Source of the DNA: Maylandia zebra | Taxonomy: Eukaryota; Chordata; Actinopteri; Cichliformes; Cichlidae | Direction of reading: 5' to 3' | Assembly: GCF_041146795.1 (NCBI RefSeq) | Contig: NC_135174.1 | Coordinates: 18,408,878 to 18,472,877, forward strand | DNA length: 64,000 bases | In this document: positions 1 through 39,355 of the stretch, piece by piece | Layout: every line of letters starts with the position of its first letter | Numbering within the stretch: position 1 is the stretch's first letter | Program-made: the position numbers and the translations under genes | Notes under the pieces: model-generated | Database searches by the model: none | What the model was told of the DNA's origin: nothing | The model's input: only the letters and a program-made list of their open reading frames with translations

Positions 1-341
1 AAATGTGACTGTGCTGAGTGGCCGTGGCACTGTGCGCACTTAAGTAATATTGGTGATTGGAAGCCAGTGTTTTAGTCTTCTCCTTTTTTTCCTGATTAGT
101 TTATTTTATACTTTATTTTTAAGTCTTGGATCTATTTTTATGGGTCGCTCTGGTTTTAAAAACAAATTTAAAGCTCTTACTGGTCATTAACACAAATGCA
201 GCGTTTACCTGTACAGGGATTGACCACTAGAGGTCCTTTTACTCAAGGTTTACATTCATCAGCAACTTCCTTGACAAATGCTAAATGCTGATCAGATTAA
301 ATAGGATTATCAAGGGACAATACATTTTGTTCTTAATATCA
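1..341. repeat. Left copy of a ~350-bp direct repeat
   Basis: This stretch is repeated in the same orientation at 7209-7580 with high identity; the right copy carries about 31 extra bases near its start. Similarity ends at about 341 here and 7580 there. The left copy begins at the first base of the window, so the duplicated block probably continues outside it. No coding potential is seen. The right copy lies about 430 bp after the stop of the 549-residue gene, so the left copy may be the 3' flank of a neighbouring duplicate. Confidence 0.85.
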
Positions 342-1804
342 TATTATTTCATCTATCATGTCTTTTCTATGATTCATATTTTATTGATGAGACCATCGAA
401 AGCGAGGTAGCAAATACTCAAAGATTAACTAGTCAGGACGTGATTTCTACATTTCTACAGTTTTTTTTACACGGTGGTCTTTGGCATGTTATCTTATTTT
501 TGGTGAATAAAACAAAACCACCAGTGAAAATTGTTTTAGATTTAGTAAATTGTAAGTAAATTTTAACTCATGCAGTTGTAACCCCTTTAAACAATCGTTC
601 GTGTCCTGCAGGAAATGGAATACCAAATGAACTGACTAAAGGGGGTGCCTGTAAAAATTCCTAAGGTTCTTCTGCCCACTGGTGCTGCTGCAGCTGATTT
701 CTATCAACAAGAGGTGGGATCACCTGCAAAGAGACTGCGATTTTTGGTTTGGGGCCTTTACCCTCTGAAGAAGCCAAACAGTGGACTGAAACTGTTTGGG
801 TCTCATTTTGATTTGTGGTCACTGTACCAAAAATGTGGTTCATCATAATTATGGAACATTTAAAGATGCAGTTATATTTCTTATTGACATCACCAGAAAT
901 TGTGTGTGACTTCTTATGGTGGTGTTCAATAAAGAAGTATAATTATTTTTAAGAATAACAAAAAGCCATTTACTATAGAGTAAAGGGTGAAAGCTGCTTC
1001 TATTTAGAACAGTTACAATATTTTGTTTGATTTGATTTCTTGCAATAAACAGAGACAATTTGCAATTCTCTAATTCTTTGTAACAGGTCCTTTGTAAAGA
1101 ATTCAGCTTTTGTGTAAACACCCAAGTTCACCAGATATCTGGGAAACAATGCAACAATTTATTTTAATAATTCTATAATGAAGTGTTAAATTGCAGTTAG
1201 AAGCTACTGCTCCAAACCTCGTAATAAACATCAAACAGGATTAAAACCTCAGGACAACAAAGAAAACAAGATGACATAGAAGTGACCCCCATTCTATACG
1301 ATGTGCCATAAAACTAAACACTGTGTTTGTATGTTTGTGTGCGTGCGAGCACGCGAGTGCCTGCGTACCTGTGTGTAAGTGCATGTGTATATATGTTTAT
1401 GTACCTGTGTGTACGTGACTTCCTGTGGGTCATAAAAGTCCATCTCCCTTTCAAGCCAAAGTTATCCAGTTACAAACATTTAGGTCCCCACCCAGGTATC
1501 CCCTGGGGAATTTCCACTCAGCTTTAGCTTCTCTTTGTCCTGTTTTCACAGCTCAAGGTGGGGAGGGTCTCTTACAAGTTTACTCCTAAGTTTATGTCAC
1601 ATTTAGGCCTATATTACATCCAGGGCAGTGTCAGTGTCTCTACTATACTTCTACATCCTATCTAGCACATTTCTAAAACCTAAAATAAGCTACAAATATC
1701 TTCAAGTTCCTCTTTCTCTGTAGGATAACCAAATCAATTAAACCAAGTGCTGTGGTGGTGATATGAAATTCAACCTTTGCAGCCTCTGTAGCTTTCTAGT
1801 AACA
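342..1804. other. Non-coding stretch, possible LINE remnant, GT-rich patch
   Basis: No supported gene. Around 610-655 one frame reads GNGIPNELTKGGA, which resembles the GNExADxLAKxGA motif of LINE-encoded RNase H, but neighbouring sequence gives no further support. A degenerate GT microsatellite lies at about 1323-1420. The rest is AT-rich with short chance ORFs only. Confidence 0.3.
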
Positions 1805-2560
1805 TGTCACGGGGTGGAAAGGGACAAGTTATCTAAGTTTTTCTACTATGCATGTTTTAGTTACCGTCAAATTGTCCTGGAGAGACTCCGCCCTTTCCCC
1901 CCATCTTTACTAATTGGACACACCTGAGAGGGAAGGCAAGGTAATTTACAGAGTGCTCAATGACACATAAGAGTGTTGGAGTTGGCGTTCGAGAGGGGAC
2001 ATGACCAGCGACTGGGGACGCGCCACCACGAGCGACTAGGGACGCGCAGCGAGCAGTCAGACGGCAATAACGACAAGAGCCAGCTTGTGCACTGCGGGAG
2101 AGCAGAAGCAGTGAGACAGCTGGTGCCGATTGCAGTTTTAAAGAAGCGGCGGGCGGAGTTGAGAGCTCTGCCCACCCGGGGTAAGTCTTTGACTTATCCC
2201 TTTTTATAAAGTAAAACTGTCGAAAGGAATATTGACTGCCGCTCCCTCTCTTCCTTCAGTGCACCGGGACGTGGAATGCGGGGAGGAAGGCGAGGACTCC
2301 ACTGGGTTTCCCTCTTTTACTACTACGCTGGATTTCTTAGTTTTTTGTGACTTTTATGCCGTGGTGGATCCCACTGGACTTTTAATGTTGTGTTTTATTG
2401 ATTTTTATTGTGTTATCCCTTGGCCAAGGTTGTTTTAATTCATTTTACATTTTTAACTATTTAAATATAATAAATTATATTTTTAATCTTACAGTTTAAA
2501 TTATGTGCTTTCCCTTGGCGGCTCCACTGCTCTGCCCGTTTTGAGAAAGGTTTCCTTCCT
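1805..2560 (+). mobile_element. Possible solo LTR or other TE end
   Basis: The stretch begins TGTCACGG, like the supported solo LTR at 9406, has a GC-rich middle with a splice-donor-like GGTAAGT near 2180, and an AATAAA-type signal near 2470. I found no clear matching CA end or target duplication. It could instead be a promoter or exon of an unrelated transcript. Weak call. Confidence 0.22.
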
Positions 2561-3034
2561 TTTAAAAACACAAAACATCTTGGAAATAAAATCAGCCTTT
2601 CCGCTCCGTTACAAACACATTTGCCTTTTCCTTTTCAAACAATTTTACATGAGTTACACATTATGTCTCTTCAAAGAGAGTCAGAACAGCATGGAGACCC
2701 TTAACCTCGTGTACCTTACAATCAAATTCTTCTCTGCATTTAAAACCATGATCTGCAGTTAGCAGCCACACTGCTCCACACATCCAACATCAGCATCCGA
2801 CTAGAGACTTGCAACATGTGGAAAACTGGGCTTCTCCATAAGAGCTAGAAGGTTGAAAAAATAAAAGAAGAAAAATATATTAGTTACTTCAACTGTAAAC
2901 TAAGAAATTTAACTAAAGACAAACTTTTGAACTTGCTGTAACATTTGCAAATGAGGCAGATGAAGGCATCCTTTACAGAATGTGTGTGCGGTCTTTGCAG
3001 TTTCAGATTTACGGTCAAAGTGATGTCTTGGAGG

Positions 3035-3120
3035 TAGGGCTGGGCGATATGGCCTAAAATCCATATCATGGTATACTTTGAAGCATGTGCGGTAACAATA
3101 TATATCGCGATATATTATTT
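3035..3120 (+). mobile_element. hAT-type terminal fragment (GGGCTGGGCGATATGG end)
   Basis: TAGGGCTGGGCGATATGG followed by the ATATCGCGATAT theme is the end of a widespread vertebrate non-autonomous hAT-like repeat. No matching inverted end was found downstream, so this is probably one end of a decayed copy. The following ~1.7 kb (3121-4860) shows no gene. It has a 21-bp exact direct repeat at 4407-4427 and 4484-4504. Confidence 0.4.
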
Positions 3121-4897
3121 TCTTCACTGCAGCATTACCGAGAGTTGAAAAACTGTCTAAATTCTTTCATCTGTAATAAAATGATCAGTGTGGTTGCTCT
3201 ACCAGATGTGACAATTACATTTAATATCCAGGCATCCATGAAAACAGAATTTACGAAATTTAACAGAGTTAGAAGTTAGCAGCAAGTAAGCTCGCTAGTT
3301 TCCACCTAAACATAATATAGCATGTTCTGACTGAGGGATTTCTGAAACAAATTAAGACGTACAGCTTTGCTATTACTTCCCAAATAAATGAAGACAGGAA
3401 AGTAAACAGCAGTGAAGTTTGTAGGGTTACTGAAGTTTGGCTAGCTGGTATATAATGACGCGCTACGCGACACAGCTATGTTAGCATAATATAAACAGTG
3501 AAGCTGGAGGACAAAGTCGCTAGATGACGTCATTGCCTAATTTGCATAATTGGTCATGTAATTATAAAGGACCCTGTAGGAGAGAGAAATAACATCGTGA
3601 AAGAGACATAAAGTCAATAGAAACACCCTGAAAGCATTTAGTATATATTTAGAACCACAAATTTGATTTCTTTTAGCAATTATTGTTTTTGTTAATGTCA
3701 CAATCCCAACCCTCCTCCTTTATCCGGACTTGTGACCTGGAAAACTGACCCGAAATAGGCACTCTGGCAGAGTTACTTTTTTGTTTATGTGTCTGTGTGT
3801 GTCTTTTACAGAGTTTTAAACCTTGGGATCCACAAAAAAGCAAGAGTAAAAGACGAACATTTTTATCCATAATGTTGTTAACAAACTACATTAATCAAAA
3901 ATGGACATAGCAAGCATCACCAGACAGCTTCAGTCGAAATTGGATGTAGAAGATAGAGTTAAGGCTCTGCAAGGACATCTGATTTCTAAGTTAGCAATGT
4001 TTGGAATGGTGTATTTTAGTGCATTGATTTATTTTAAACAAAGAACAATATACTTCTACCGCTTCTCCCGACCTGCGTTATAGTCAGAGCGGGAGCAGCG
4101 GTTTCGCTCATGCGCAATTCTTTTGCAGTTTGGACCCGTAGGTGTAAAAAGCTCCTGCTCTGACAGCAGCTGGGGGCAACTGCTGCATTAGGACGGCCGC
4201 CTGTGAGTGCTTTGGCACGGGCGAGGTGCCCACGGCAGCTCCCGCTGCTTGTAAGAGCGATACGTGCTTCCACGTCAAAAACTCGTAATAACACCAGAAA
4301 AAAGTCACCAGATTTGTTGTTAGTCGCTTTTTAGAAAAAAAAAAAAAAGTCAATTAAGGCGTCTGAAAACTCGCTAGATATAGCGACAAAATCACTGCCG
4401 TTAAGTCCTCCGTTATTTATTTAGCTAAACAAGTCAATTAACACTGGCTTACAGCACCATAGAAATATATACAAAAATACAAGCCTCCGTTATTTATTTA
4501 GCTAATATGCTAGTAGCCAATGTGCTTTAAGCTAACTCGGCTTCCCACAATCTTACATTTCTGAATAAAAACACTAAGAAGTTACCTTTAATACCTCCGA
4601 CCAGTATAATTTCATTCCACGTTAACAGAGCTTTCTACGTGAGAGCAAGCCGTAAAACTTGAACACAAAAAGTAAATAATTAAAAAAGGTGAGTGTGTTG
4701 TTTGTTAATCGACGGTGAGACAGCGGGGGCGTAATCCCAAGGGCGGAAGCACCCCGGGTTTTTTTCTGTCTGGGTTGCCATTCCTCGATAACAGCAGGTT
4801 AATATTAAGGTTAGCTTAATGGTTAATACTAACGTTCAGGGAGGTGAAGGTTCAAGACGTTTTGTGACCGAATGAATTTCAAAGAGTAAGCGTACTG

Positions 4898-4948
4898 TGA
4901 CGTCACGGCACGTGTGCCTTGACGTCACACTGCCGTGAGGCTATAAAT
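4898..4948 (+). promoter_or_regulatory. Promoter: two CRE sites, E-box and TATA box
   Basis: Two perfect TGACGTCA sites (4898-4905 and 4920-4927) flank a CACGTG E-box (4909-4914). The block 4898-4927 is itself an imperfect dyad. A TATA box (TATAAAT, 4942-4948) follows, which predicts a start near 4970-4975. Consensus CREs bind CREB/ATF/CREM factors. TATA-plus-CRE promoters are common in male germ cells and in stress or cAMP responses; which applies here is inference. The likely target is the ORF starting at 5130. Confidence 0.65.
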
Positions 4949-4982
4949 ATGAGCTCGCGCCTTAGAACGCGAGCTCATATTT
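4945..4982. repeat. Perfect 15-bp inverted repeat including most of the TATA box
   Basis: Left arm 4945-4959 (AAATATGAGCTCGCG) and right arm 4968-4982 are exact reverse complements around an 8-base loop. The left arm includes part of the TATA box and the right arm spans the predicted transcription start. The element could form a cruciform, or a hairpin if transcription starts upstream. Confidence 0.9.
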
Positions 4983-4991
4983 ACCCCCAAG

Positions 4992-5056
4992 GTAAGGCAC
5001 TCTACTACACCTAGTGTTGAAAACACATTTTAACAAAATTAACGCTGATTCTATAG
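4992..5056 (+). other. Possible tiny 5'-UTR intron
   Basis: CAAG|GTAAGG at 4991/4992 is a strong donor, and a CTATAG acceptor ends at 5056, giving a 65-bp intron between the predicted start and the ATG at 5130. This is at the short end for fish introns. The leader may instead be unspliced. Confidence 0.3.
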
Positions 5057-5129
5057 TCTTCTAACAATCGTCTAAAGGTTAGAGCATATAGTTTATCTCT
5101 ACTGAACCCTATCTCCTCTGTTTACAAAT

Positions 5130-6779
5130 ATGTGGCGCTCAGTGTTCAGTCGTACAAATTCTTCAGATACTGACGGCTTTGAGGTGCTTGACAGATATTA
5201 TTTAGAGCCTGATGGGTTCTTCTTACCGATATCTATTTCTAGAGATGAACAGTCTGAGGTTCCTAAAACCAGTGTTTCTGTAAACGCCTATGAAAATGAA
5301 CAGGCAACCACCTCTGAAATAGATGAGGCTCCTAAAACCAGTATAAACAACTTTGAACATGAAGAGTCTCCCACCAGTGAGAATTACAGCACTAATTTAT
5401 TCAATGGCGTCCTCCCCAAACCTTCAGATATGAACAAATCTGAAGAGAATGAACAAAACGCTGACCAAGGAAGTTTTCAAAGAGAGGAGAAAGAAACTTT
5501 TTTTTCCAGAGTTCAAACAAATCTTTCAGCTCTGTCTTCCATTATTACAGCTCCAGTTGAGTCGGTTGGGCGAGGAGTCATTTTTGTCACCAGGCACATT
5601 TTTAATATTGGTCGAGCTCCATTTACCTCACCCACTAGTGAAACGGAAAAGTCACCCACCTCTGAAACAACTGAGGTTCCTTCACCGAGTGTTTCTGTAA
5701 ACAACTTTGAATACGAACAGTCACCCTCCAGTGAAACAACTAAGATTCCTACAACCAGTGTTAATATGAACAACGCTGAAGATGAAAAGTCTTCAGCCAG
5801 CGAGAGTTACAACACTGATTTATTAAATGCCATTCTTCCTGAACCTTCAGATAAAGGACCCGAAGATAATGAACAAACAGGCAGTCTTCAAACAAAGGAA
5901 GAAGAAACTATTTCTTCCAGACTTCAAACAAATGCTCCAAATCTCGATTCCTCTTGTAGAGTTCCAGATGTGCCTGTGGGCCTTAGAGAAGATTTCATCA
6001 CCAGGCACCTCCTTAATATTGGTCGAAGACCATTTACCTCAATTATTCCAAATCTCTATTCCTCTTGTAGAGTTCCAGATGTGCCTGTGGGCCTTAGAGA
6101 AGATTTTATCTCTAGGCACCTCCTTAATATTGGTCGAGCACCATTTACCTCAATTATTCCAAATCTCTATTCCTCTTGTAGAGTTCCAGATGTGTCTGTG
6201 GGCCTTAGAGAAGCTTTTATCTCTAGGCACCTGCTTAATATTGGTCGAGCACCATTTACCTCAGTTACCACACCCACTAGTGAGACCTCTGAAACAGCTA
6301 ACGTTCCTAAAACCACTGTGTCTATAAATAACTTTGGACATGAAGATTCTCCCACCAGTGAGAGTTACAGCATTGATTTATTCAATGTTGGTCTCCTTGC
6401 AGCTTCAGATAACAGATCTGAAGAGAATGAACCAAATATTGTCCAAGGAACTCTTCAAAGAGAGGACGGAGACTCTGCTGTTTCCAGACTTCACAGAAAT
6501 CTTCCAGGTTTTAATTCCCTTATTACAGCTCCAGTTGTGCTTGCGGGCCAAGGAGTCATTTTTGTCACCAGGCACATCCTTAATATTTGTGGAGCACCAT
6601 TTACCTCATTGTTCAATCATTTTTCAGCAATTATTCAGCGTAGGTTTCCCCATGGAGCTAATTCAGGCCTGATTCCTACAATCAGAAGATGGTTAGATAT
6701 AATTTCTTGGATGACTTCAGTAATTGGTGCACTTGCACTTTTAGTTTTACTTATAATAGTCATCATGTTAATTCACTAA
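5130..6779 (+). CDS. Unrecognised 549-aa repeat-bearing tail-anchored protein
   Basis: I do not recognise this protein. It is one uninterrupted ORF; the ATG at 5130 has A at -3 and follows a TATA/CRE promoter. Residues 1-45 are unique. A unit of about 100-120 residues recurs at about 48-167, 187-304 and 396-493. Each is acidic and Ser/Thr/Glu-rich (SPTSE, EENEQ) and ends in a basic block like RHxLNIGRAPFTS. The middle unit has grown by three nearly identical tandem 37-residue repeats (268-304, 305-341, 342-378). A basic stretch (RRFPHG, IRRWLD) precedes one hydrophobic segment, about 527-548, that ends at the C-terminus. With no signal peptide visible, this suggests a tail-anchored protein with a cytosolic repeat region. 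AATAAA lies at 6788-6793, nine bases after the stop. Function is unknown. Confidence 0.72.
   Translation: MWRSVFSRTNSSDTDGFEVLDRYYLEPDGFFLPISISRDEQSEVPKTSVSVNAYENEQATTSEIDEAPKTSINNFEHEESPTSENYSTNLFNGVLPKPSDMNKSEENEQNADQGSFQREEKETFFSRVQTNLSALSSIITAPVESVGRGVIFVTRHIFNIGRAPFTSPTSETEKSPTSETTEVPSPSVSVNNFEYEQSPSSETTKIPTTSVNMNNAEDEKSSASESYNTDLLNAILPEPSDKGPEDNEQTGSLQTKEEETISSRLQTNAPNLDSSCRVPDVPVGLREDFITRHLLNIGRRPFTSIIPNLYSSCRVPDVPVGLREDFISRHLLNIGRAPFTSIIPNLYSSCRVPDVSVGLREAFISRHLLNIGRAPFTSVTTPTSETSETANVPKTTVSINNFGHEDSPTSESYSIDLFNVGLLAASDNRSEENEPNIVQGTLQREDGDSAVSRLHRNLPGFNSLITAPVVLAGQGVIFVTRHILNICGAPFTSLFNHFSAIIQRRFPHGANSGLIPTIRRWLDIISWMTSVIGALALLVLLIIVIMLIH
5931..6263 (+). repeat. Three tandem 111-bp coding repeats
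   Basis: These encode three 37-residue units sharing SSCRVPDV, VGLRE and RHLLNIGR. Neighbouring copies differ by only a few bases, so the expansion looks recent or is homogenised. The unit length is a multiple of three, so the frame is kept. Confidence 0.92.
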
Positions 6780-6838
6780 TTCTAACAAATAAACATGAAA
6801 TTCAGTATCCTTAGCATAAAATTACATCACAATTATGC

Positions 6839-7065
6839 CCCCAGCCAGTCACAGCAGAAGGCTGCCCCTCCCTGAGTCTGGTTCTGCTGAAGGTTTCTTC
6901 CTATTAAAAGGGAGTTTTTCCTTCCCACCGTCGCCTTAGTGCTTGCTCATAGGGGATCGTTTGATTGCTGGGGTTTTCTCTCTAATACTGTGGGGTTTTA
7001 ACCTTACAGTACAAAGAGCTTTAAAGTGCCTGTTCTAACACAGCATTATTAAATAGACTTTAAAT
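6839..7065 (+). repeat. Dispersed teleost repeat (CCTGAGTCTGGTTCTGCTGAAGG type)
   Basis: The string of motifs (TGGTTCTGCTGAAGGTTTCT, then AAAAGGGAGTTTTTCCTTCC, then GCTCATAGGGGATCGTTTGA) matches a repeat I recall as very common in fish genomes, usually the 3' end of a non-LTR element. It sits directly after the 549-residue gene and could be transcribed as its 3' UTR. Confidence 0.6.
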
Positions 7066-7208
7066 GGCTTCAACTGAAAAAACATTACTTAATAAAGAAA
7101 AAAATCAATAAATAATGGTGTGTGTTTGTTTCATTTTCTATACCAGGGTAAGTGCTAAAACTTAGTGGGTTATAATTTATGTAGCTTTTAACAGATTATT
7201 GTTGTTTC

Positions 7209-7580
7209 AAATGTGACTGTGCTGAGTGGCCGTGGCACTGTGTGCACAGGATAAAACCTGTTGATTTTAAGATTGCACTTAAGTAACATTGGGGATTAGA
7301 AACCAGGGTTTTAGTTTTTCCTTTTTTTTCCTGGTAAGTTTATTTTATAGTTTATTTTTAAGTCTTTGATCTATTTTTATGGGTTGCTCTGATTTTAAAA
7401 ACAAATTTAAAGCTCTTACTAGTCATTAACAGAAATGCAGCGTTTATCTGTACAGGGATTGACCACTAGAGGTCCTTTTGCTCAAGGTTTATATTCATCA
7501 GCAATTTTCTTGTCAAATGCTAAATGCTGATCAGATTAAATAGGATTATTATGGGACAATACATTTTGTTCTTAATATCA
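7209..7580. repeat. Right copy of the ~350-bp direct repeat
   Basis: Pairs with 1-341 in the same orientation. It shares the long block from AAATGTGACTGTGCTGAGTG to CTTAATATCA, with scattered substitutions and a 31-base length difference. Sequence on both sides differs from the left copy, so the duplication boundary is visible at its right end. Confidence 0.85.
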
Positions 7581-7589
7581 AAGGAGGCT

Positions 7590-7735
7590 TCTCTCCGTCT
7601 GATAGCTTGTGTTCTGAGACCTGACACCTTAGACCTGACCTCTTTGAGACCTGACTTTTTTGAGACCTCACACCTGAATTTCTGAGACCTGAGACCTGAT
7701 GACTTTTTGTCTGAGACCTGAGGATGTCCTAAAAA
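7590..7735 (+). repeat. Degenerate minisatellite with GAGACCTGA core
   Basis: About nine imperfect copies of TGAGACCTGAC-like words occur with spacers of variable length. There is no coding potential. Confidence 0.7.
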
Positions 7736-9209
7736 TGTACACTGTACTGCAGAGACAGTGCATGACGTGGGGTTTTATTTCATTTTCCGGGGCAGTGAAT
7801 GTAATGTACTAATAACATAAATTATGACAACTTCTTGCAGAGAAAGTTCATCAGCTTACACTATGTTAAAAACACACAAAAACCAAACAATGTATTTTAA
7901 CTGTGATTTATAGAGAGAGTGAGAGGAGGTGCTAAAGAGATAAAAACATGACAACATAAATGTGTAAAAATGATTTTTTTTCTGTACAGATATGTGGTGC
8001 TTATCCCTGCTGAAGAGCAGATTGGTGTTGCTTCAGAGGAATTCTTTAGTGCTGTTATGTAGTGGTCTTACACTTAAGGTTTTAATAACATTATTTTATG
8101 TATTAGTGAAGATTTGCATACATTATCTTACATTCTGTAAATTAAGTTTTCTGGAAAGGTCAACTTAACTGATGTAACTACGTATTAATGAAAGACCTTG
8201 ATGTGTATATGACTATAATAGATATTGTTTATCTATTATAGTCATATACGGCAACTCCTGTGGTTGCAAAGAAGCTTTGGGTGATAAAGAGGTCAGGGCA
8301 ACTGTGGAACTGCTCAGCTTAAGATTTCTAAATAGAATTGAACTAATGGATGACATCAGTCTCTTTTTATATACAGTTAATGATTATAAGCCACTTCTAG
8401 CTTGATCAGTTGAGTATATTTTTGTTTTTCCTCTGGAAACTTTTGGAATTCAGGGCTGTCATTCGGTGTGGCCAGTGACATTGCTCTAGTTGTAAAAAAC
8501 AAAACAAAATATAGATGTATATGAAAATCTAAAATGTATTCAAAGGCAAAATGGGATGCATAGCTAATAAATAGTATTATGAGAAAAAAAAAAACAACTT
8601 TTTGTGAATGTAACCTTGTGAAATTTGAAAGTCCTAGTGGCAACACAATGATCATAGCTGCCATCATGCCTAACAAGCATCATCATATCATTTGGAAATG
8701 CAATCTGGGTCCCAGCTGAAACTGAGCAAGGCAGCAATGAAATGCTGCCCCTCTGTGCTCAAACAAACGTTCGCGGCTTGAAAGCGAGCGTATTTCTAAA
8801 CCAATAAAAAGAAATCTGCTGATTCAGGACTAGCACGTTTTTTTGAAACTTGACAGAAAAACCCAGTGCCTAGTGTGTGACAGAACCAACGACAACAGTG
8901 TTGCCACCTGCTCTCTGGAGCGGTGGCCCAGTTGTTTAGATAGGTTAAGATGCGGATGCCACTCTCTCTAACGCTGCCTCAGTACATTTCACAAAGGTGC
9001 GAGGAGCAAGAGCAGCACTAGTCTTCGTGGCTACACCCTCGAATGCAAACCTCAGAAACTGCAACAATTCTCAGCACCCATGGAGAGGGGGCAAAAGCAT
9101 GCCAATGAGCAAGGTGAGTAGCCAGCCGGCTGACCGTTGTCGCCCCCCAATGTGTCTGCGGGGAAATGCATCATCTGCCTGACCTGGCTCTTTTTGCCTG
9201 CGGGCTGAG
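7736..9209. other. AT-rich non-coding stretch
   Basis: No gene supported. It contains a perfect hairpin (listed separately) and only chance ORFs. Confidence 0.5.
8205..8249. repeat. Perfect 18-bp inverted repeat, 9-base loop
   Basis: Arms 8205-8222 (GTATATGACTATAATAGA) and 8232-8249 are exact reverse complements. It is AT-rich, with no poly-T tract or gene beside it that would explain it as a terminator. It may be the core of a palindromic MITE or an indel-generated foldback. Confidence 0.9.
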
Positions 9210-11575: not shown

Positions 11576-11597
11576 GAGTGAGTGATCCGCTTAGGAT

Positions 11598-11680
11598 GTC
11601 AGGATGGCCGAGTGGTCTAAGGCGCTGTGTTCAGATCGCAGTCTCTCCCAGAGGCGTGGGTTCAAATCCCACTCCTGACA
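11598..11680 (+). tRNA. tRNA-Leu (CAG)
   Basis: An 83-nt class II tRNA with acceptor stem GTCAGGA/TCCTGAC, A box TGGCCGAGTGGTC, anticodon loop TTCAGAT (CAG), a long variable arm, and B box GGTTCAAATCC. The anticodon stem keeps pairing through one G-U. Its 3' flank is copied after the next tRNA, so the two arose by tandem duplication. There is no strong T-run terminator directly after it. Confidence 0.85.
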
Positions 11681-11933
11681 TCCCTTGCTTATTAAAAGTA
11701 AGACTGAAATGTCATGTTATGTGATGTCATCCTTCGATAAAGGAGTTGCCACCAAATGGTCACATTCATTTATCAGATAGTTGAAGAAAAGTCTCATCAA
11801 AGTGACTTCTTGAATCTCAGCTGAATATGTGTTGGTAAAGCAGAGGTGTAATAGTCTGCCAATCTGATCAGTTGTAAAGGTGTCTTGATCTGCTAGCCTG
11901 TCATGTGGATTCTGTATCAACAAGTGCAAATGT

Positions 11934-12016
11934 GTCAGGATGGCCGAGCGGTCTAAGGCGCTGCGTTCAGGTCGCAGTCTCTCCTGGAGGCATGGGTTCA
12001 AATCCCACTCCTGACA
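11934..12016 (+). tRNA. tRNA-Leu (CAG), canonical copy
   Basis: The 83-nt sequence matches the vertebrate tRNA-Leu-CAG pattern: anticodon loop TTCAGGT with a fully paired stem, long variable arm, and intact A and B boxes. It lies 336 bp after the first Leu copy. About 70 bp of 3' flank, including ATAAAGGAGTTGCCACCAAA, is shared between the two. Confidence 0.9.
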
Positions 12017-12221
12017 TTACTTGCTTAAGACTGAAATGTTATGTGATGTCTTCCTTCAATAAAGGAGTTGCCACCAAATGGCAACTGCTTTGATAAGTTA
12101 TGAACTTGAAATCTGATTCAGTTAGTGTTGGGGGTTCCATAGTGGAGGTCACCTACCAGGTTGGTGATGGGATGCTTTAATCTACATGCCAAATATCCTT
12201 GTGCAAGATACAAGGATATTT

Positions 12222-12293
12222 GGGCCCCACCGAGATTTGAACTCGGATTACTGGATTCAAAGTCCAGAGTGCTAGCCATTACACCATGGGACC
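12222..12293 (-). tRNA. tRNA-Gln (TTG)
   Basis: The reverse strand folds as a 72-nt tRNA starting GGTCCCATGGTGTAATGG, with anticodon loop CTTTGAA (TTG) and T arm GGTTCAAATC-like sequence. The acceptor stem GGTCCCA/TGGGGCC pairs with one G-U. It looks intact. Confidence 0.9.
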
Positions 12294-12369
12294 CACGAAG
12301 CAAAGGGTTTACAGACAGATTTTGGAAGATTTGGACAAAACCTTTTCTTTATCGAAGATAAAATCCAAC

Positions 12370-12433
12370 TGTCAGGAGTTGGATTTGAACTCCAACTTTA
12401 ACACAGTGCCTTAGAACACTTGGCCATCCTAAC
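12370..12433 (-). pseudogene. tRNA-Leu relic
   Basis: The reverse strand reads GTTAGGATGGCCAAGTGTTC, then a D arm and a T arm like tRNA-Leu. The anticodon arm is degraded and the variable arm is missing, so it is about 20 nt short. It is a broken tRNA copy. Confidence 0.75.
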
Positions 12434-12800
12434 TAAACAAAAAAAAAAGCATTCGAATGAGCTTACGCCAAAGACTGAACAATTCACAAAACAGCTTAAG
12501 TCGAGAAGGTAACAGCCAACAGCTAGTGAAGATGTTACCTTTGTTCAAGATATTGTAGAGGAAACTGTTTTATTTTATGACAGTAAGTGTTTGAATGACA
12601 TGTAATACTCATACTCATGCTAAAATACCTCTATACAACTGCTGTCAGTGAATACTAGCTCAGGACTAGAATACAACTGTCATTGGACGTTTTATGGTAA
12701 TAACAAGTGGATCCTCTCACCACCTAAATGAATCAACTGCCACTGAACATGTAGCAGGTGATGTGAAGAAGGAAAGGAAAGTTAATAAATAACATGCATG

Positions 12801-12872
12801 AGGTCCCACAGAGATTTGAACTCAGATCACTCGATTCAAAGTCCAGAGTGCTAATCATTACACCATGAAACC
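12801..12872 (-). tRNA. tRNA-Gln (TTG)-like, probably degenerate
   Basis: A 72-nt copy related to 12222-12293, with anticodon TTG. The acceptor stem GGTTTCA/TGGGACC needs two G-U pairs and the anticodon stem has a mismatch (CTGGA/TCGAG). Its 5' flank (GGGTTTACACACAGATTTTG) matches that of the first Gln copy, showing that both arose by duplication of a larger block. Confidence 0.65.
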
Positions 12873-22278: not shown

Positions 22279-25200
22279 TCACAGCAGAGTGAAACCTAAG
22301 ATGTACTGCAGGAGTTTGTTCCGATTTTCCTGAGGTAGAAAGGTGCTGCTTAGCTCCAGAGTTGTCACCTTGTTTTCTCTCCTCTCCTTTAGGACCTGGA
22401 GAATAAACAGAAAACAGGAGGTTTAGCTGGATGACTCTGCACATCACCCAAATACACACATAAAAATGCACACATGCCTACCCCGAGCTCCTTGAAAGTC
22501 CTCACGGTGTTCTTAACCAGATAATGAGTTGCACTTTCACCTGAATGAAAAGAGAAGTGCTTGAAATACATAAAACAGAGACAGGATCTTACTTTTAAAA
22601 TTTTTCACTAGCTAAATCCTTCTTTAATCTGATAGTAATTTCTTATTTTTCATGTGAATACTACTTATACTTTTGGACTTTATTCCCAGCACCTAAAAAA
22701 AAAATCATGACTGGAAAAACCATTTTCTCATTTTTAGCAATTTTCTCAATTCCAAGTGCGATGTAGAGAAGTTTTAAATTATTTTTTAAATACATTGTGC
22801 AGTATGTGGGCGATATTAGGATATTACCATAACCAGCCACTCCTCTTTCTGTGCGTGTGAGCAGGTATCTGAAGAGCCTCTGGGTGTAGTCGGACTCGAC
22901 CATGGGCTGGCTCAGACTGTGGACGAAGATCGCAGCCCCGCTGTAGGCCTCCAGCACCGGGCTGAGCAGCCGCTGAAGGAAGACAAAGAACTCCTGGTGC
23001 TCTGCAGAAACACTCACCTGAAAGACAACACAAACAGACCAAAAGTCAAATAAAGTCATTTTTGATGGTGAACAGTGGATGTTTGGATGTGAATGCTGTG
23101 GCGATTGTGTTGGCTGCAAAATTCCAAATGGTCTAAGTATACCTTAAGGTAGCGATCTCTCTGCTCCTCTCCAAAATCGCTGTCCTCATCCTCTTCGTCA
23201 CTCCTCCAGGAAAGGGGCTCAGCAAACTTTTTGGGCCACGGCTCATCTGTGGGGCTTGGGCTCAGTTCCTCCTGGTCCTCCTGACGCACAAAAACAGATC
23301 AGAGGATCTGAAAGTTTCATTACCCAATAGCAACTATTGCTAAGAGTCCTTCCTAAAACATTCAACTTCTGACATTAACCGCCATGATCTGTTATTTTTG
23401 TCCAGCGGCTGACGGCCTGTAAACTCACCTCTGCCACATAAAGAACTCCATACTGGATCAGCCTGGTTACTGTGTCATGGAAAACCTGGTAAATAGTCTG
23501 GCAAGGCTGTGGGACAGACAGGAGAGATGTAGACACGCTAAAACATGAAACCACATAGGAGTTGAAAATGTAATTTTATAAACAACTACTTGTCAACAAA
23601 CTTGTTCCATCATTACTAGTGTAAACTAATATGCAAACATTGTAAATAATCTTCATTTAGAGCCTAGGTTAGAGTTACTAATTACGGTGACAGGAATGTC
23701 TTATATTCAGATGATCAATGAGACTATAACCACACAGAGATGAAGTCAAGATTAATTATCTTGTCACAATTGCGCAAAACAATGTCTGGCATATATAAAA
23801 GGACTCTGATTGTAAACATGTCCACTGCTGAAGAAATGAGGCAGTGGACACGAGGTGGATGACAGCAGTAGTCATAATATCATAGACGCGTATGTAAAAT
23901 GTGCGCAGACATTTGGAGTGATAAAGATGGAATATGCAGGACTTACTGGTGCTACAGCCACCTCATTGATAAGGAAGTGGGAGAGACCAGCGGCCTTGCG
24001 GATGAGTCTCTCTTGACTTAGAAGATGACTACTGGGATTGCCAGGCTGGCGAGCAGACTCTGATTCCATGACCAGCTCTCGCTGCAGCGACAGGACACTA
24101 CAGGCTGGAGAGGTACAGGAAAACCTGTGTGTTTAGGACTGCTGAACTTAGATCTACTGTCACTTGTTTAACTTCAAACAGCAATTTAAACTAACTATTT
24201 AAAAAAAATGTATTATTCAAGCTTACATGTTCAGTATATTTTTCTTAAATAATAACCACAATGATGAACCAAAACAGCACATAATACTGTTGGCATAACT
24301 TACCAATGATTGCATCAGAAATGAATACATGGAAAAGGCCGTTGCTGTAGAAGTTGAGCTCAAAAAGCGCAGGTACAGTTTGACTAGGTGCGATGGTAAA
24401 CTCTCCATTGCGATTAGAACTGCTGGTCACATTGAGGCAGTTCCCCAGGAGGTGGAGAGCACGCATGACCACGTCCTCTGAGTTCCCCGAAAAGCCCAAG
24501 TCAAAGTCTCGTGACAGGATCTCCTCCTTCATGTTGAAGAAGTCTTCCACTAGCTTGGACAACACCACCCCCTGACACAAAATGAGCAGGAAAAAACAAC
24601 AACAACAACATCAGAAACTTAAAAAAAAAAAAAAAAAGTATATTGGTGAATTTTAATAAGCCCACTTCAAAATAATAAAAGTCGAGAAACAAAGAAAAAA
24701 ACTACAAAAGGGCTTTTGGGGTTGTATGCAGCACTGAGCAGTTGTCATGACATTAGTGTGTCTGTAGAGGTCAGAGTCTCACAATTAATGCAAGAGGCGA
24801 TGAAAGAGAATGCAGGAAGAAATACGATTTTCTAACAGAGTTATCTATTCCTATATTTATGACTTAAGTGTCATGCCCAGGAAGGTGCATACCTGCTAAA
24901 CGGAAGAGGAACAAGGGGAAAAAAAACAAACATACCAGACGGGGTAATAATAGCAGGATTTTAAAAAATGTGAGCTGGTGTATCTGGCAGTGACAGAACA
25001 CGAGGAGAGAGGAGGCAACAGCTACACATACCTGTCTGTGTCTATACAGCAGTAGACAGGCCACAATGTGGGTCGACATGATTGCTGACGATTTATTGGC
25101 CGCTATGAGGAGGAGATACAAAAGGGTATAATAAGCAACACACAACAGAAAGAGAACAAAAAAAGCAGAAGTAGCAGAAGTACTTGTAATTCATTGAGAC

Positions 25201-37268: not shown

Positions 37269-39355
<2,087 letters not shown>

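Follow-up and report, generated by a model that had tools for sequence, protein, structure and literature searches.

Evidence for an intact gene encoding an unrecognised, predicted tail-anchored protein with internal repeats in a 64-kb stretch of fish DNA

A 64-kb stretch of fish DNA, analysed here at full length as the window, contains what is very probably a real protein-coding gene at 5130–6779 on the forward strand, the product of which would be a rapidly evolving membrane protein, tail-anchored as predicted. Its coding sequence runs from ATG to TAA, a single exon as read, and specifies 549 amino acids within a frame of 557 codons from stop to stop; this is exactly the uninterrupted open reading frame (ORF) reported in an earlier note on this DNA. 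Among 60 simulated sequences of 64 kb, drawn from first-order Markov chains built from the window, stop-free runs reached at most 203 codons, and the maxima averaged 154. The protein is rich in Ser (12.8%) and Thr (8.2%), with a pI of 4.8 and a net charge of −28 over residues 1–515, in line with the acidic, Ser/Thr-rich body described earlier. Because the ORF is far above chance and its frame has been retained despite the divergence of its internal modules, and because Pfam, PHROGs and PDB yielded no significant family, the sequence supports the reading of a gene that is intact and encodes an unrecognised tail-anchored protein with repeats. An overlapping +2-frame ORF (5827–6327, 166 amino acids) was rejected as a second gene; it probably stays open because the 111-bp period of the repeat array in this region is a multiple of three.

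The ORF is framed by elements that resemble a promoter and a 3′ end, as the earlier note had proposed. Upstream, a near-palindrome at 4896–4929 (an inverted repeat with 94% matches and a putative control element) carries two cAMP-response elements (CREs), TGACGTCA, that start at 4898 and 4920, 22 bp apart, with an E-box (CACGTG) between them at 4909; two of the three copies of TGACGTCA in the 64 kb fall here. A TATA box, TATAAATA, follows at 4942–4949 (+), where its consensus and position suggest its function, and places a probable start site at about 4971. A perfect palindrome with 16-bp arms and an 8-base loop (4944–4983) overlaps the TATA box and this presumed start. Simulation of 20 windows gave no hairpin with arms of 16 and a loop of up to 12; besides the one at 4944–4983, the real window has another at 8205–8249, an AT-rich perfect palindrome with 20-bp arms and a 5-base loop. 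We infer that these upstream elements function as a promoter. The putative 5′ leader (4971–5129, +) contains no ATG, on a scan from the presumed start to 5130, and has a donor-like AGGTAAG at 4990, from which an intron in the 5′ untranslated region is possible. Downstream, a likely polyadenylation signal, AATAAA, lies at 6788–6793 (+), starting nine bases past the stop.

Both the nested repeats and the conserved RHxLNIGRAPFTS blocks reported earlier were recovered. Three internal repeats of 105–108 residues each lie on the forward strand: M1 (5310–5630; acidic body plus first block, RHIFNIGRAPFTS), M2 (5727–6041) and M3 (6285–6608). Repeat detection also found a tandem array of three 111-bp units (37 codons) with 95% matches at 5936–6267 (+), which seems to have arisen recently by expansion of the block that ends M2. 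Five RHxxNI...PFTS blocks start at residues 155, 292, 329, 366 and 481. All five keep RH..NI and PFTS; the fifth, however, reads RHILNICGAPFTS. When each block was compared with its own shuffles, the amphipathicity of the first was exceeded by 4 of 2,000, and that of the other four by 518, 668, 1,188 and 730 of 2,000. The best amphipathic windows near the blocks were not in excess over whole-protein shuffles (239 of 1,000). We do not claim the blocks as amphipathic membrane-binding helices, a proposal that shuffling favours for one block of the five.

The history of the modules bears on whether the frame is translated. Treated as paralogues, they differ at 82 (M1–M2), 61 (M1–M3) and 86 (M2–M3) sites, and none contains a stop; their DNA, aligned without regard to frame, has gaps of 6, 3 and 9 bp, each divisible by three. 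In a star-tree test at kappa 1, 2 and 3, pN/pS for the three modules was 1.52, 1.74 and 1.89 (P of 24, 8 and 1 in 1,000), and it was 1.54, 1.79 and 1.96 (34, 11 and 3 in 1,000) when a stretch of 18 unusually variable codons was left out. The pairwise signal rests on M2–M3, in which the excess of nonsynonymous change had a P of 1 in 400 at both kappas; M1–M2 (95 and 39 of 400) and M1–M3 (48 and 24 of 400) were not significant at 0.05, and the pairs are non-independent. Without the variable stretch, the pairwise values were 100, 41 and 6 of 600, significant for M2–M3 only. Divided by region, pairs 1–2, 1–3 and 2–3 gave 90, 15 and 7 of 600 for the acidic body and 186, 375 and 3 of 600 for the block part. 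The three 111-bp units show the opposite trend, with dN below dS and few differences. All of these values could be distorted by gene conversion or misalignment. The simplest reading of the modules is that they belong to a translated protein under diversifying (positive) selection, since they diverge yet stay free of stops, with in-frame indels and a pN/pS of 1.5–2.0 (P 0.001–0.034).

An untranslated frame or recent pseudogene, open by chance, would be very unlikely, given a frame of 549 codons where simulation reached no more than 203, a leader free of ATG, the TATA and AATAAA elements all in place, and indels at the DNA level in multiples of three. Neutral module trios in which no stop was proposed numbered 7, 18 and 25 of 1,000 at kappa 1, 2 and 3, and 23, 46 and 54 of 1,000 with the variable stretch excluded, so that neutral divergence this deep leaves 0.7–5.4% of runs stop-free. 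What speaks for a chance frame is the distribution of changes over codon positions: summed over the three module pairs, positions 1, 2 and 3 differ at 84, 85 and 60 sites. Third positions are not the most changed, and classical purifying selection is therefore not seen.

The translated product would be held in a membrane by its C terminus. A hydrophobic tail at residues 527–548 (6708–6773, +), one residue of the protein lying beyond it, reaches a 19-residue hydropathy of 3.27 and is a predicted tail anchor, as the earlier note had it. That note had also called for structure prediction; an AlphaFold model built from the single sequence places a helix at 514–548, of which 521–549 is the confident part (10-residue mean pLDDT 83–96). 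The pLDDT is below 50 over residues 1–489, and the mean of the whole model is 37.7, although low values in a single-sequence model are no proof of disorder. On the charge–hydropathy plot, the line groups the spacers with disordered sequences and the blocks with folded ones. Residues 1–515 as a whole are marginally on the folded side (0.445 versus 0.433) and are therefore not one continuous disordered region.

No recognised family emerged, in agreement with the earlier note. With the whole protein, PHROGs returned no match; at E ≤ 10, Pfam returned one row (DUF6052, E 0.026, 15.3 bits against a cut-off of 25) and no FUN14 domain, and PDB returned 13 rows, none significant (12 gelsolin at E 0.64–1.1 and one NLRP5 at 8.2). 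A profile of the modules drew three gp41 rows from PDB (E 3.3–3.8), none significant. In viral contigs, 4 stretches matched whole-protein patterns and 19 matched block-alignment patterns, and in prokaryote genomes 50 stretches matched; none of either was confirmed. For a gene that has not been studied, a fish orthologue would hardly be expected in these five collections (Pfam, PHROGs, PDB, viral and prokaryote). A limited literature search recognised no described fish counterpart, to which we give no weight for novelty. The zebrafish ‘oogenesis-related gene’, at first suspected, was dropped as a lead rather than excluded; in the part of the literature checked, the phrase is used in a general sense.

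The surroundings of the gene raise the question of a mobile origin. The earlier note had placed it in repeat-rich DNA, a description that holds in part. When the first 9 kb were compared with the window, a single longer copy appeared besides the coding repeats: the 3′ flank at 7209–7580 (+) recurs at 1–341, with 91.8% identity across 306 bp, a further 34 bp identical and one 31-bp gap. With the ORF masked, tblastn within the window (E up to 1) found no further coding copy and blastn found one 19-bp match (E 0.088). Because the 3′ flank recurs at 1–341, the locus may be duplicated upstream of the window, with a sister copy of the gene just outside it; alternatively, the two copies could belong to a dispersed repeat, or they could mark both ends of an element that encloses the gene. 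Under this last reading, the ORF would derive from a mobile element or endogenous virus, and its youth or its domestication would account for its being intact. Its compact, unspliced form and its own promoter would fit, as would its position between direct copies 7.2 kb apart and the sequence at about 6840–7020, which we take to resemble a repeat common in teleosts. We nonetheless consider such an origin unlikely. The earlier note had set a clear match to a known gene or transposon protein family against its own reading, and no match was significant in Pfam or PHROGs or confirmed among viral contigs. Apart from 5130–6779 and its +2 overlap, the 64 kb hold two ORFs of at least 150 amino acids; inverted repeats flanking the gene within 1–9000 are short (14–16 nt, 87–93%); and further copies are absent from the window, with module divergence large for a young element.

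Elsewhere in the window, a Pfam search covered 11 other ORFs. Of the two that reach at least 150 amino acids, the one at 9.5 kb has no Pfam match and the one at 22.7 kb holds a GPAT1 exon. Two stretches within 22721–24601 (−) match mitochondrial GPAT1 (chain 8e4y_A, E 3e-38 and 1e-22) and offer a synteny anchor, and 38984–39100 (+) matches ribosomal protein eL19, with the best chain, 7oya_R1, presumably from the zebrafish ribosome. These matches mark the window as animal DNA, and probably that of a fish. Four tRNA genes lie at 11597–12872, two Leu(CAG) on the forward strand and two Gln(TTG) on the reverse, all four of which pass Rfam.

The N terminus suggests what the protein might do. The motif scan used the xLIR pattern, of which DGFEVL is the sole match in the 549 residues; it marks a candidate LC3-interacting region (LIR), SSDTDGFEVLD, at residues 11–21 (5160–5192, +), with the core FEVL at 17–20. 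A plain xLIR match is present in 51% of shuffles, and the motif is therefore weak by itself. An extended form, [DEST]x[DEST]x[FWY]E[VIL][LVI][DE], occurs in 0.175% of 20,000 shuffles of residues 1–515, a pattern defined post hoc, after the match was seen. Searches of PDB chains at E ≤ 10 with the 34-residue N-terminal stretch and a 20-residue motif piece returned none. Set beside FUNDC1 residues 10–25, the N-terminal SSDTDGFEVLDRYYLE is similar to the peptide through which FUNDC1 binds LC3, DYESDDDSYEVLDLTE (PMC5233613).

On these data, the protein could tentatively be predicted to act as an organelle-bound autophagy receptor; our estimate goes no higher because FEVL could be a chance motif. 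The mechanism we infer, from expression and membrane topology to LC3 binding, the organelle and the role of the blocks, would run as follows. The C-terminal helix would insert post-translationally and leave about 510 residues in the cytosol, where acidic, probably disordered spacers would alternate with the RHxxNIGRAPFTS blocks, which are short and probably helical. FEVL, held close to the N terminus by a tether of about 500 residues, would capture LC3/GABARAP, and the organelle that bears the anchor, the endoplasmic reticulum or the mitochondrial outer membrane, would be drawn into autophagosomes. The repeated blocks may bind membrane, each other, or a client or opponent protein, which would explain why block number and sequence change.

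The same features could instead describe a membrane protein with a role in the germ line or in immunity, lineage-specific and evolving fast, in which the blocks would be the targets of an arms race (a sperm–egg, host–virus or selfish-element conflict) and the LIR-like motif a coincidence. We regard this as quite possible, if short of probable. The nonsynonymous excess between modules, the repeat expansion and the possibly duplicated locus would all fit, and paired CREs with a TATA box are an arrangement associated with CREM-driven spermatid genes; CREs, however, are active in many tissues, and the FUNDC1-like context of the motif would be left unaccounted for. Returning to the receptor proposal, its boldest form would be a family of tail-anchored autophagy receptors, new and confined to fish, with a FUNDC1-like LIR and a long, diversifying repeat tether, in which block expansion and positive selection would suggest an arms race, for example with intracellular pathogens or selfish cytoplasmic elements. 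We think that whole picture improbable.

Measured against known receptors, the candidate motif most directly invites comparison with FUNDC1. The FUNDC1 sequence SDDDSYEVLD (PMC5233613) has 7 of 10 residues in common with SDTDGFEVLD here, with acidic residues ahead of the core and D behind it in both. The cores share an aromatic-E-V/L-L form (FEVL here, YEVL in FUNDC1, FELL in RETREG1, also known as FAM134B), and PMC7297954 gives FELL for RETREG1 and FEVI for RTN3. Unlike FUNDC1, the protein has no FUN14 domain, nor does any other Pfam family reach its cut-off in it. BNIP3 is built with a LIR near the N terminus, an acidic spacer and a C-terminal anchor. Tail-anchored mitophagy receptors of the BNIP3/NIX type are matched here by a candidate N-terminal LIR, an acidic spacer and a predicted C-terminal anchor, but our protein has 549 residues with repeated blocks and no Pfam match to BNIP3. 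Organelle-autophagy receptors in general are described as having a membrane tether and a disordered cytosolic region of at least 47 residues (47–250 in single-LIR receptors) with a net negative charge (PMC12431859), and the predicted combination of N-terminal LIR, acidic spacers and tail anchor partly matches them. Charge, distance (506 residues from FEVL, the putative LIR, to the anchor) and tether (the predicted tail at 527–548) agree on paper, and disorder does so in the spacers only.

If the LIR is real, this would be a selective-autophagy receptor that evolves through duplicated repeats and positive selection, in contrast to the conserved receptors of the FUNDC1 and RETREG1 type, and the idea that fishes have a front line of conflict in organelle autophagy would become directly testable. 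If it is not, the gene would still be a well-supported, fast-evolving orphan membrane protein with internal repeats that record a history of selection. Lineage-specific (orphan) genes are reportedly a class described for zebrafish, and the gene resembles teleost orphans in its fast change and in having no detectable family in the collections searched; orphan genes are usually shorter and less repetitive than this one. Orphan genes for fast-evolving membrane proteins are a known kind of thing, whereas the proposed receptor role would be new.
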